A stretch of 64,000 bases of DNA from the NCBI RefSeq assembly GCF_029846235.1, contig NZ_JARVWP010000008.1:1-64000 (forward strand). The letters run 5' to 3'. A program made the translations under genes and the position numbers. Each line of letters begins with the position of its first letter. Position 1 is the first letter of the stretch. The DNA is from Bradyrhizobium sp. CER78 (GTDB lineage Bacteria; Pseudomonadota; Alphaproteobacteria; Rhizobiales; Xanthobacteraceae). The notes beneath the pieces were generated by a model, which was given only the letters and a program-made list of their open reading frames with translations, did no database searches and was not told the origin of the DNA. Positions 2,494 to 28,679 of the stretch are shown here, in pieces.

Positions 2494-3582
2494 TCATTGC
2501 GTTCGGCCGATATCGGCGACGGCGACCTCGACATCGCGCGCAGAGCCGTCGCGGCTCACGGTAAGGCGCACCTTCTTGCCGACCCCGATCTGCTCGAGCT
2601 GATCGGCCAGGTCGGAGAGCCGACGGACCGGCTTGCCATCGACCGCGGTGATCACATCGCCGAGCTCACCGGTCGACATATCGACGCCGCGGAGCCCGGC
2701 GCGCTCGGCGGGCGAGCCCTGGGTAGTGCGCACGATGATCAATCCCTCGGCGCCGATGCGCGTGGCGACCGCCTCGTTCGCGGTCACGATGCCGATCCCC
2801 GGCGTCGGCACACGGCCGTTGCGGATCAGCTCGGGGACGACACGATTGACGATGTCGACCGGGATCGCAAAGCCGATGCCGGCATACGAGCCCGACGGCG
2901 ACAGGATCGCCGTGGTCACACCGATCAGGCGGCCGGCTGAATCCAGCAACGGGCCGCCCGAATTACCGGGATTGATCGCGGTATCGGTCTGGATCACGTT
3001 GGAGATCTCGCGGCCGCTGGAGGTCGGCAGCCTGCGCTTGAGGGCGCTGATGATGCCGCTCGACATCGATTGATCGAGCCCGAACGGATTGCCGATCGCA
3101 TAGGCAAACTGCCCGACCTTGAGGTCGGCCGAGCTGCCGAGCGCCAATGGCGGCGGCAGCTTGCGTGCGTTGCGGATGCGCAGCACCGCAAGGTCGTAGT
3201 TCGGCGCCGTGCCGACGATCTCGGCGCGCACCGCCTCGCCGGACGCAAAGCGGATCGCGACCTGGCTTGCGTTCTGCACCACATGGTTGTTGGTGACGAC
3301 GTGGCCGTCATTGTCCCAGACAATGCCGGTGCCGGACGCCGAGCCGCTCTCCTGGTCCTCGCTCAGCGGATTGGCGGCAGTCTGCGTCACCACCTGCACG
3401 ACCGACGGCGACGCCTTCTCGAATATCTCGACATTGGACTTTTCGGCATCCGACAATGCGCTCCGTTCGGCGACCGCCCGGGCAGCCGGGCCCGTCCACG
3501 GTGCCTGACGGATGCTGCCGGCCGCGACGATCAACAAGATGGCCGCGATGACGGCCACGATAACGGCGGTGCGCCGGTTCAT
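2494..3582 (-). CDS. HtrA/DegP-like trypsin-type serine protease with one PDZ domain
   Basis: A 362-residue membrane-anchored or exported protease. Residues 6-22 form one hydrophobic segment after an Arg-rich start, consistent with an uncleaved anchor or signal. The catalytic triad is complete: H100 in VVTNNHVV, D130 in NYDLAVLRI and S208 in NPGNSGGP. A single PDZ domain fills roughly residues 260-355 and includes GSPAERAGL. Family knowledge: such one-PDZ DegS/HhoA-like proteins degrade or process misfolded envelope proteins in the periplasm. It is monocistronic as far as can be seen, between the CoxL-like gene and a lyase gene. It makes a useful contrast to the dead homologue at 27445. Confidence 0.92.
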   Translation of the reverse strand: MNRRTAVIVAVIAAILLIVAAGSIRQAPWTGPAARAVAERSALSDAEKSNVEIFEKASPSVVQVVTQTAANPLSEDQESGSASGTGIVWDNDGHVVTNNHVVQNASQVAIRFASGEAVRAEIVGTAPNYDLAVLRIRNARKLPPPLALGSSADLKVGQFAYAIGNPFGLDQSMSSGIISALKRRLPTSSGREISNVIQTDTAINPGNSGGPLLDSAGRLIGVTTAILSPSGSYAGIGFAIPVDIVNRVVPELIRNGRVPTPGIGIVTANEAVATRIGAEGLIIVRTTQGSPAERAGLRGVDMSTGELGDVITAVDGKPVRRLSDLADQLEQIGVGKKVRLTVSRDGSARDVEVAVADIGRTQ

Positions 3583-3679
3583 GAGTATGCTCCAAGCAAC
3601 AAACGCCTGGGATCAACAGAGGTTTCTGGCGCGGCCAAGGTGGAATACCCGGCATTTTGCCGCGCGGGCGGACGCGCGT

Positions 3680-4555
3680 TCAGGCCAGATCCCGCAGGGC
3701 CGCCTCGACCACCTTGCGTTGTTCGGCGGTGAGCGGCGCCTGCGGCGGCACGGGGTCGCCGACATCGTAGCCCTGGATCGCGAGCCCGGCCTTGATGCAG
3801 GCGGCGAGGTTGAAGCGGGCGAACGCCTCGTTGATGCGCCAGAGCTTGCGCTGCACGGTCATCGCCTCGTCCCAGCGGGCGCGGCGGCAGAGATTGTAGA
3901 GTTCGACGCTCTGACGCGGGATGATGCAGGCCGGGCCCGCCATCCAGCCATGGCCGCCGATCAGCATCACCGCGGCCGGAATATGCGCGGACGCCGAGAA
4001 CACTTTCAGGCTGTCGCCGCAGCGGTTCATGATCGACAGCAGCCGGCCGGTGTTGGTCGAGGCGTCCTTGATGTAGCCGATGCGGGGGTGCTGGGCGAGG
4101 CGCGCGATGACGTCGAGCGTGAGGTCAGAGCGCTGGAAATTCGGATTGGTGTAGATCACGACGGGAATATCGACCGCGTCGGCGATGGCGCGGAAATAGG
4201 CTTCCACCTGCGCGTCACTGAGCGGAAAATACGCCTCCAGGATCGCGAGAATGCCGGCAGCGCCCCGCTTCTGGTAAGCCTTGGCCTGCGCCACCGCATC
4301 AGCCGTCGAGGTCGAGGCGACGCCGGCCACGACAGGCACGCGGCCCTGCGCGGCCTCGATCGTGGTCGCCACCACCTGCATGCGCTGCGCATTGTTGAGA
4401 TAGGCGAACTCGCCGGTCGAGCCGAGCGGCGTCAAGCCGTGGACGCCCGCCTTGATCAAATCGTCACACAGCCGCCCCAGCACCTCGGTGCGGACATGGC
4501 CGGCTGGATCGACCGGGGACACCAGATACGGAAAGACGCCGTGGAAGTCAGCCAT
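3680..4555 (-). CDS. Dihydrodipicolinate synthase family protein
   Basis: A 291-residue TIM-barrel class I aldolase/lyase of the DapA/NanA superfamily. Seen: the substrate-carboxylate loop TPLGSTGEF at 42-50, the catalytic Tyr (Y135 in VVIYTNPNF) and the Schiff-base Lys (K163 in GYIKDAS). The frame is open further upstream, but I start at the ATG of MADFHGVF because it aligns with the family N-terminus and overlaps the end of the preceding epimerase gene by only 8 bases. That overlap implies a shared transcript with the epimerase. The neighbour suggests a sugar-acid or keto-acid aldolase/dehydratase rather than the lysine-pathway DapA; the substrate cannot be read from the sequence. Confidence 0.88.
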
Positions 4556-27224: not shown

Positions 27225-27347
27225 GTGCAGTTTCTGATCCAACCGTTTCACATCTTCGGCTTCGAGGGTCAGATCTGGATGCTGATCGTGATCGCGCTGA
27301 TTGCCGGCTTTGCCCTGCTTGGCTTGCGGACCCGGGACCGGGGCTGA
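27225..27347 (+). CDS. Small membrane peptide (40 residues)
   Basis: A 40-codon frame from GTG to TGA, encoding a peptide with one hydrophobic helix (IWMLIVIALIAGFALLGL) flanked by an aromatic N-terminal part (FLIQPFHIFGFEGQ) and a charged C-terminus RTRDRG, consistent with an inner-membrane protein with the C-terminus inside. It lies 89 bases after the response-regulator gene and 97 bases before the dead-HtrA gene on the same strand. The sequence does not resemble KdpF, the small Kdp subunit. It could be a signalling micropeptide for the cluster. Support is the codon pattern and helix only. Confidence 0.5.
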   Translation: MQFLIQPFHIFGFEGQIWMLIVIALIAGFALLGLRTRDRG

Positions 27348-27444
27348 GCGGCGGTTCCGAGCGGCGCGTCCCGGCCCTGCCCATCCGGCCAGTTTCGCCG
27401 CCGGCCGCAACATCCCAGATTGCGGGAAGCCAACGGAGTTTCCC

Positions 27445-28311
27445 ATGACCGAACCGAACATCCTTGCCTCGTTGTCGTCAGCCCTGTCGGAGACCATTGC
27501 GCGCGCGGCGCCATCGGTCGTCTCGGTGCATTCGCATCGCGCGCGCGCCTCGGGCTTTGTCTGGAAGGCGGGCCTGATCGTCACTGCGGACGAAGCGCTG
27601 GCCGACGAGGGCGAGATCGAAATCCAGTTCGCCGACGGCAGCCGCCGCCAGGCAACCGTCGCCGGACGCGACCACACCACCGACATCGCGCTGCTGCGCG
27701 TCGATGGCGACGTCGCGCCGATCAAGCTATCGAGCGAGATCCCCGCGCTCGGATCGCTCGCGGTGCTCGTCGCGGCCGACCGCGGCGCGCCGGTCGCGCG
27801 GCTCGGCATGGTCTCGCGGTCGGGCGCCGCCTGGCGCAGCCTGCGCGGCGGCGAGATCGACGCACGGATCGAGCTTGACGTCCGGCTGCGGCACAGCCAG
27901 CAGGGTGGACTAGCGCTGAATGCCGCCGGCGTGCCGTTCGGCATGGCGGTGCTCGGCCCGCGCCGCGTGCTGACGATTCCGGCTGCGACCATCGAGCGGG
28001 TCGCAGCCCAACTCGAGAAGAGCGGCCGCATCGCGCGCGGATATCTCGGCGTCGGGCTGCAGCCGGTCCGTCTCGACGACGGCCTCGGCGCCATGGTGAT
28101 GAATGTCGACAAGGCCGGCCCCTCGGCCACAGCCGGCATCCGCCAGGGCGACGTGATCATTGCCGTCAACGGGGAGAAGCTGTCCGGCGTGCGGGCGCTG
28201 TCGCGCGGCCTCGGGCCACAGAGCGTCGGCAGCGTCGTCGAGCTGACCGTGCATCGCGGCGGCGAGCCGATGATCTTCAAGGTCACAGTCGGAGAGAGGC
28301 CCGAGACGTGA
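27445..28311 (+). CDS. Catalytically degenerate, cytoplasmic HtrA-like protein with PDZ domain
   Basis: A 288-residue protein with the trypsin-like double-barrel and a C-terminal PDZ domain (~197-285, GPSATAGIRQGDVIIAVNGE). Aligned with active HtrA, the His position reads IVTADEA (E50 in place of His), Asp is kept (D80 in TDIALLRV), and the GNSGG loop reads SQQGG (Q153 in place of Ser). Two of three triad residues are gone, so proteolysis is not expected. There is no signal peptide or membrane segment, so it should stay in the cytoplasm. It overlaps the LuxR-type gene by 4 bases. A likely role is peptide sensing or scaffolding for that regulator; this is inference. Confidence 0.85.
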   Translation: MTEPNILASLSSALSETIARAAPSVVSVHSHRARASGFVWKAGLIVTADEALADEGEIEIQFADGSRRQATVAGRDHTTDIALLRVDGDVAPIKLSSEIPALGSLAVLVAADRGAPVARLGMVSRSGAAWRSLRGGEIDARIELDVRLRHSQQGGLALNAAGVPFGMAVLGPRRVLTIPAATIERVAAQLEKSGRIARGYLGVGLQPVRLDDGLGAMVMNVDKAGPSATAGIRQGDVIIAVNGEKLSGVRALSRGLGPQSVGSVVELTVHRGGEPMIFKVTVGERPET

Positions 28312-28679
28312 GCAGTGAGCCTGCCGCCGACATCGTCATCGCGCTCGAGATCGACGACCCCGTCCTCGCCGACCGGCTGGCGACGTTGCTCGGCAGCGTC
28401 GCCGGCCTGCGGCTCGCCGTGCCGGGCGAGCAGGCGGCCGCCGCGATCGTCGCACGTAACCGCGAGGCCGCCGGCGGCGACTTTGAGCTCACGCCGCGCG
28501 AGCTCGACGTGCTGGCGCTGCTGGCCGAAGGCGCATCCAACAAGATGATCGCGCAGCGGCTCGGAATTTCCGTCCACACCGCCAAGTTTCATGTCGGCTC
28601 CCTGCTCGACAAGCTCGACGCCACCGGCCGCACCGATGCCGTCGCACATGCCGCGCGGCGCGGCGTGATCGATTTGTGA
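28308..28679 (+). CDS. LuxR-type helix-turn-helix protein with truncated receiver
   Basis: A 123-residue DNA-binding protein. The C-terminal half is a GerE/LuxR domain (LTPRELDVLALLAEGASNK, then IAQRLGISVHTAKFHV and LLDKLDATGRTDAVAHA). The N-terminal ~45 residues (IVIALEIDDPVLADRLATLL) look like the first strand and helix of a receiver domain, but the phospho-acceptor Asp and switch residues are missing, so it cannot be controlled by phosphorylation in the usual way. Its GTG start lies in GTGA with the stop of the dead-HtrA gene, so the two are made together and probably act together. Confidence 0.85.
   Translation: MSSEPAADIVIALEIDDPVLADRLATLLGSVAGLRLAVPGEQAAAAIVARNREAAGGDFELTPRELDVLALLAEGASNKMIAQRLGISVHTAKFHVGSLLDKLDATGRTDAVAHAARRGVIDL

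Follow-up and report, generated by a model that had tools for sequence, protein, structure and literature searches.

A gene pair in the window, which is the whole 64,000-nucleotide stretch of Bradyrhizobium sp. CER78 that was analysed, encodes an HtrA-PDZ protein without catalytic His and Ser followed by a LuxR-type DNA-binding protein. On balance, this pair is probably a dedicated regulatory module for a cytoplasmic HtrA, in which the LuxR-type protein would control its own operon and the gene of an intact HtrA paralogue (cytHtrA) via a 16-bp dyad and the dead HtrA would control the LuxR-type protein by contact. The reading starts from the pairing of the two genes, the loss of the catalytic residues, the conserved dyads before both the pair and cytHtrA and the pattern of the partner's C-terminal tail, and from these we infer the cytoplasmic location, the binding of the LuxR-type protein to the dyad and its sign, the contact between PDZ domain and tail and the competing ligand. 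The anatomy of the pair is, in our judgement, categorically new, and the mechanism remains a proposal. The public annotation of the first gene is "S1C family serine protease", and the second is given as a response regulator or LuxR-type regulator. The features of the locus are as follows:

27377..27392 (+): operator-like 16-bp dyad CTGCCCATCCGGCCAG, 52 bp upstream of the start codon, of the form CTRSCC-N4-GGSYAG
27414..27422 (+): conserved box CCCAGATTG, possibly the -10 region (role inferred), seen by eye in most of 42 Bradyrhizobium upstream regions
27433..27438 (+): ribosome-binding site ACGGAG, read from the sequence
27445..28311 (+): gene of the dead HtrA-PDZ protein, 288 amino acids, stop included in the coordinates
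27547..27945 (+): trypsin-like domain with lost catalytic residues, amino acids 35-167 (Pfam Trypsin_2, 56 bits, cut-off 27.6)
27592..27594 (+): codon of Glu50 at the place of the catalytic His, from alignment with DegP-type HtrAs
27682..27684 (+): codon of Asp80 at the place of the catalytic Asp, which is kept, from the same alignment
27901..27903 (+): codon of Gln153 at the place of the catalytic Ser, from the same alignment
28039..28290 (+): PDZ domain with RGYLGV motif, amino acids 199-282 (Pfam PDZ_2, 54.9 bits, cut-off 27)
28308..28311 (+): GTGA overlap of the stop of the HtrA frame and the start of the LuxR frame, read from the sequence
28308..28679 (+): gene of the LuxR-HTH partner, GTG start, 123 amino acids, stop included in the coordinates
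28332..28454 (+): receiver stub without phospho-acceptor, amino acids 9-49, from the structure model and alignment with longer partners
28488..28652 (+): LuxR/GerE helix-turn-helix, amino acids 61-115 (Pfam GerE, 64.4 bits, cut-off 23.5)
28665..28676 (+): C-terminal VIDL, a possible PDZ ligand (hydrophobic-x-hydrophobic-COOH), from the tail pattern of the partners

The first protein has the HtrA/DegP (S1C) layout of a trypsin-like domain and then a PDZ domain, both of which score above their Pfam cut-offs, and the PDZ domain is as originally predicted. In an alignment with DegP-type HtrAs, E50 lines up with the His of TNNHVV and Q153 with the Ser of GNSGGP, which confirms the claimed Glu for His and Gln for Ser; the catalytic Asp, which the original prediction did not mention, is retained as D80. 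The His-Asp-Ser triad of HtrA/DegP (S1C) is not found in the window protein, where these places are E50, D80 and Q153, and no NCBIfam subfamily or equivalog cut-off is reached by it, the best match being TIGR02037 with 101 bits versus 416.2. In an alignment of 25 rows R198, G199, L201 and G202 of the PDZ domain are invariant, and its RGYLGV motif is presumably the carboxylate loop. AlphaFold, given 42 close sequences, models the HtrA part poorly (mean pLDDT 44.5), and the fold assignment therefore rests on sequence profiles. In line with the claim that the protein lacks a signal peptide, by eye its N-terminus MTEPNILASLSSALSETIARAAPSVVSVH has neither a basic start nor a hydrophobic core; Kyte-Doolittle hydropathy does not discriminate, the DegP signal-peptide control (1.5) lying within the range of the family. 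No DegS-type membrane anchor was seen in the N-terminus, with family hydropathy at or below 1.88 versus 2.97 for an anchored control. From its N-terminus, the dead HtrA is predicted to be cytoplasmic.

The loss of the catalytic residues is a property of almost the whole family. A tally of proteins scoring 160 bits or more to any of seven family queries, a threshold that could miss distant intact relatives, comprises 209 loci with 151 distinct HtrA-like proteins, of which 150 were aligned and one, cut by a contig end, was left out. Their His/Asp/Ser places read EDQ in 69 proteins, EDE in 60, EGE in nine, EDH in four, QNE in three, EAE in two and DDE, DGG and HDS in one each; by position, these are E144/Q3/D2/H1 at position 50 and E75/Q69/H4/G1/S1 at position 153. 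Both His and Ser are absent from 149 of the 150, no close relative is intact, and the sole intact homologue (HDS) is a distant plasmid protein of Paraburkholderia sprentiae with 35% identity. The dN/dS of the HtrA gene ranges from 0.03 to 0.18 in 11 comparisons between close species. Given these values and the constrained substitutions in the 150 homologues, the loss of the catalytic residues is not the result of chance or decay. When the intact Paraburkholderia protein was searched against 319 genomes from the phylum, pair proteins were among the best matches listed, and the other listed ones were mostly longer frames of canonical size. A branch supported at 100/99 splits cytHtrA and DegP-type proteins from the rest of the tree, and the rows of Paraburkholderia and of locus L205 are on long branches near this split, their order being weakly supported. 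In Paraburkholderia phymatum pBPHY01 (L237), the homologue of the intact-type Paraburkholderia HtrA aligns as two separate pieces, and the ORFs listed downstream of it include no visible LuxR gene. HtrA-like genes are also found in 10 phage records, with 25-32% identity.

The two genes are tightly held together. Both ORFs were located and have the 4-bp GTGA overlap that had been claimed, which is identical in 127 of 129 Bradyrhizobium loci (some genomes counted twice), and for 149 of 150 distinct homologues the next gene downstream is that of the LuxR-type protein, as expected of a pair that stays together; in the exception, L205 (the same place as L203), the LuxR gene is directly upstream of the HtrA gene. 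A contig search, from which 80 named loci were kept, all of them from Bradyrhizobium, gave B. tropiciagri SEMIA 6148 as the best named match to the locus, with 99% identity. The pair was found in 50 of 60 Bradyrhizobium genomes (in two of them cut by contig ends), and 10 are without it. Profile searches extend the family to eight further genera of the family of Bradyrhizobium, three further families of its order and two families from other orders of the same class; members of the family have E values of 3e-53 or below, and the next matches, at about 3e-48 and weaker, are longer frames like canonical HtrAs. The pair is held as a unit while its flanking genes differ between clades.

The surroundings of the pair were also inspected. 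The kdpDE-like genes were considered as members of the system and rejected, as they are directly upstream of the pair at 7 of 129 loci only (L001 and L086, both of which are the window's own locus, and L006, L013, L014, L024 and L089). A 40-aa ORF with a hydrophobic stretch is found between the kdpE-like gene and the pair (window 27225-27347, + strand) and occurs at seven loci, all with kdpDE-like genes upstream of the pair. None of four neighbouring proteins scanned with Pfam belongs to an anti-sigma family. The window also contains a membrane-anchored HtrA with intact catalytic motifs (2494-3582, - strand) 24 kb from the pair, a relative of which is about 3.4 kb from the pair at L035. At L205, an ORF adjoining the pair (3210-3995, - strand) has an HtrA-like N-terminal part fused to a different, HTH-like C-terminal part.

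The partner contains the LuxR/GerE helix-turn-helix of NarL/FixJ response regulators, the solved relatives of which include NarL, LiaR and VraR. No match to Response_reg was found in its 123 amino acids up to an E value of 0.1 (Pfam) and the stub is about 50 amino acids long, in accordance with the predicted LuxR-HTH protein with a mere receiver stub; the NCBIfam matches listed are below their cut-offs and mainly over the HTH half. The model of the partner (mean pLDDT 76) shows beta-alpha-beta-beta ahead of the HTH, and a Foldseek search with it listed response regulators together with further proteins of the LuxR-type HTH class, one of the matches having an E value of 0.001 or below. The model is consistent with the N-terminal stub being an eroded receiver. 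In most Bradyrhizobium and a few neighbours the partner is nearly always a stub form of 119-129 amino acids, and elsewhere, as well as in four Bradyrhizobium genomes whose pair is more distant, it is longer (187-227 amino acids) and has a receiver-like N-terminus. In a scan of four such partners, two had weak Response_reg matches below the cut-off (E values of 0.003 and, for the Paraburkholderia partner, 0.05) and the other two had none; because longer partners match this weakly or not at all, the receiver was probably degenerate already before it shrank. The LuxR gene has dN/dS values of 0.05 and 0.10 in the two comparisons that could be computed.

A hydrophobic-x-hydrophobic-COOH tail, the pattern read by DegS-type PDZ domains, ends 149 of 152 partners (134 distinct), in the forms VIEL, VINL, LVLV, VIDL, LVML and others; the three without it are L183, L200 and L009, the last of which appears to be frame-shifted. 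The same pattern is found in 2 of 26 other distinct LuxR-type proteins of the window's genome, these being the distinct ones from 30 of 32 genome matches. The tail pattern is partly due to common descent, and plain common descent may suffice for it. The proposed control of the LuxR-type protein by contact through the PDZ domain is indirectly supported by the PDZ-ligand-like C-terminus of the partner.

The region upstream of the pair contains a candidate operator. With at most one mismatch, CTRSCC-N4-GGSYAG was found within 120 bp upstream in all 125 Bradyrhizobium loci of the main and sister clades (some genomes counted twice), 107 of them exact, compared with 12 of 1547 random windows from the same loci, and the dyad lies mostly 52-56 bp before the start codon. 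Of 26 more distant rows, 21 show it on inspection by eye, L200 and L207 have a weak form, and none was visible in L132, L204 and L205. The window dyad is the only exact match to CTGSCCAYCCGGSCAG in the genome, and with one mismatch there are six matches versus three for the reversed control. The distance from the end of the dyad to the CAGATT box is 23 bp in the window, a spacing that would fit an activator site over the -35 region. Positions 27377-27392 also fit, as a fit to sequence alone, the 16-bp CviR binding palindrome CTGNCCNNNNGGNCAG, as given in the available part of PMC12114271. CviR is an AHL-responsive LuxR protein, whereas the partner is without an autoinducer domain match; identity of the partner as a quorum-sensing regulator was rejected, since the autoinducer-binding domain has no match in it (Pfam).

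The dyad leads to a second HtrA. This protein, cytHtrA, shows no signal sequence to the eye and keeps its TN.HV and GNSGGP motifs intact; it adjoins the pair at nine loci (L183, L205, the divergent loci L194-L199 and L201), and its orthologue in the window's genome is unlinked (G000:C11:79668-80735, - strand). It was found at an E value of 1e-55 or below in 74 of 80 genomes, including all 50 Bradyrhizobium genomes with the pair of the 60, and the three of these 60 that are without cytHtrA are also without the pair. The promoters of cytHtrA were scanned with a matrix trained on pair dyads only, the background of which is 10 matches of score 12 or above in 858 kb; clades were assigned manually on the identity of the pair and, for those in which it was read, the type of operator, and the Bradyrhizobium counts leave out G017, a genome with the pair. 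A site is found upstream of the unlinked gene in 26 of 33 main-clade Bradyrhizobium genomes, with scores of 11.8-20.8, and a second dyad faces cytHtrA in all seven divergent linked loci. The matrix found no such site in 12 sister-clade genomes, in the four genomes with the distant pair type (where one weak, off-place match scores 11.1), in nine genomes without the pair (seven Bradyrhizobium and two of other genera) or in the seven scorable unlinked genes of other genera with the pair, two more not being scorable. The window's own cytHtrA promoter has a remnant and no recognisable site, and six other main-clade genomes are likewise site-less. Because the site is missing in whole clades and in some main-clade genomes, control of cytHtrA, as read from these promoters, is lineage-dependent, with presence and absence of the site following clades.

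The specificity of the dyad is seen in 20 whole Bradyrhizobium genomes, in which exact CTRGCCAYCNGGSCAG has 26 matches in 18 genomes, 13 before the pair, 10 before cytHtrA and three elsewhere, compared with one match of the reversed pattern; the letters of CTRGCCAYCNGGSCAG were chosen after the cytHtrA sites were known and these counts are not independent of them, but the near-absence of other places is independent. The window's genome has no match to CTRGCCAYCNGGSCAG. At unlinked loci CTAG, one half of the cytHtrA site, shares bases with the stop codon of the preceding gene, which, like the mere remnant in the window's genome, counts against the proposed control of cytHtrA. The cytHtrA promoters of L217-L236 share, by eye, CTTGCG and CACCAT about 15 bp apart even where the dyad is lost, an arrangement that we take to resemble a heat-shock (sigma32-type) promoter. 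The cytHtrA of the window's genome (L208) has a repeated AQVD segment in its N-terminus, which is not in the printed stretches of its relatives.

Since the conserved dyad is common to the cytHtrA promoter, the pair looks like a regulator of a living protease of the same family and not an isolated sensor, and the intact, signal-less cytHtrA is its likely target. We propose that the LuxR-type protein, which has no phospho-acceptor, would bind the 16-bp dyad upstream of its own operon and, in many genomes, that upstream of cytHtrA, and the position of the dyad in the window suggests activation; further, that the dead HtrA would set the activity of the LuxR-type protein by contact, its PDZ domain holding the hydrophobic C-terminal tail. 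The exposed C-termini of unfolded or cut proteins might then compete for the PDZ domain and in this way report the load of cytHtrA. We put forward more tentatively, as a possible rather than a probable elaboration, that the dead HtrA is a non-proteolytic sensor of C-termini: these would displace the LuxR tail from the PDZ groove and the freed regulator would switch on cytHtrA and its own operon, such that the dead copy would measure the substrate load of the live one.

The same promoters could be read differently if the dead HtrA entered mixed trimers with cytHtrA and tuned the protease by subunit poisoning, with the LuxR-type protein setting the expression of both and untouched by the dead HtrA. 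The dead and living paralogues do co-occur and are sometimes adjacent, the dyad is common to both, and by eye the N-terminal segments ahead of their protease domains are similar. However, poisoning leaves unexplained why the dead HtrA is tied by 4 bp to the LuxR gene and not to cytHtrA, it does not account for the partner's tail pattern, and many genomes have the pair without a detectable cytHtrA site; we consider it unlikely. A plain autoregulated operon, in which the LuxR-type protein regulates its own genes and the dead HtrA acts elsewhere as a chaperone or adaptor with no contact between the two, would be expected to have a dyad before it, as is found, but the dyad is elsewhere nearly confined to cytHtrA promoters (20 genomes) and the pair moves between neighbourhoods as a single unit, which makes this account quite improbable. 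Very doubtful is a ligand scaffold with an acidic pocket (E/D/Q or E/D/E) for a small molecule or metal, whose binding would be signalled to the LuxR-type protein, the PDZ domain being structural only, for although the substitutions in the pocket are under strong constraint (149 of 150 have Glu, Gln or Asp where the His would be and 148 of 150 have Glu, Gln or His where the Ser would be), the PDZ loop residues are constrained at least equally and the pocket Asp is replaced by Gly or Ala in 12 of 150 and by Asn in three of 150.

For a contact-controlled module directed at cytHtrA, the nearest working analogue is DegS-RseA-sigmaE, where an HtrA-type PDZ domain reads exposed C-termini and controls the transcription of proteases including DegP. 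The proposed link from C-termini read by an HtrA-type PDZ domain to transcription is alike in both. DegS, however, is membrane-anchored and periplasmic and acts by cutting RseA, whereas the dead HtrA is without a visible anchor and without the catalytic His and Ser and is paired with a LuxR-type protein. In Rap-ComA, contact with Rap, a TPR protein regulated by Phr peptides, controls a LuxR-type DNA-binding domain; RapF with the ComA DNA-binding domain (PDB 3ulq) is among the listed structural relatives of the partner. Control of such a domain by contact with a partner protein is what we propose for the pair, although Rap has no HtrA or PDZ part. The iRhoms are rhomboid-family membrane proteins of animals and are not known to have a transcription factor partner. 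As dead protease relatives regulating the pathway of live ones, iRhoms and other rhomboid pseudoproteases resemble the dead HtrA, as far as the available part of PMC3149277 goes. Aspartate-less receiver regulators are described in the accessible portion of PMC4395418 as response-regulator descendants that work without Asp phosphorylation; they keep their receiver domain, whereas the LuxR partner retains a receiver of only some 50 residues and is itself coupled to a dead protease. Judged by sequence features, the pair lacks a defining feature of each of three classes, active HtrA proteases, DegS-type proteases and phosphorylated response regulators.

The original prediction that no system of this form had been described agrees with the open-licence PMC literature, in the titles and abstract openings of which no description of an HtrA/LuxR pair was found. 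A survey lists 42 inactive serine-protease homologues in 91 genomes, and its available part does not name the pair genes (PMC2605481); there is likewise no sign of them in the available parts of PMC8632152 and PMC6320959, and the accessible text of PMC3575494 mentions a predicted Vibrio protein with a PDZ and an uncommon protease domain. The presence of the same dyad before the pair and cytHtrA suggests an undescribed way to sense the need for a protease. If the proposal is true, this would be an apparently undescribed bacterial circuit in which a pseudoprotease and not a protease reads substrate C-termini and, through contact, signals to a transcription factor whose target is the live paralogue, and it would give a function to a gene pair now annotated as above. 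With its small regulon, its dyad and the tail of the partner, the reading is readily testable in laboratory strains of Bradyrhizobium.

Two further occurrences of the dyad were noted. In a relative, an exact operator-type dyad, CTAGCCACCTGGGCAG, is found at L345:1501-1516 (G010:C1:4544469-4544484), in one genome and perhaps by chance, between genes that we take to be trigger-factor-like and clpP-like. In Bradyrhizobium sp. Ash2021 (L206), the pair and its dyad are on a plasmid typed as conjugative, where the annotation of the two genes reads S1C family serine protease and LuxR regulator.
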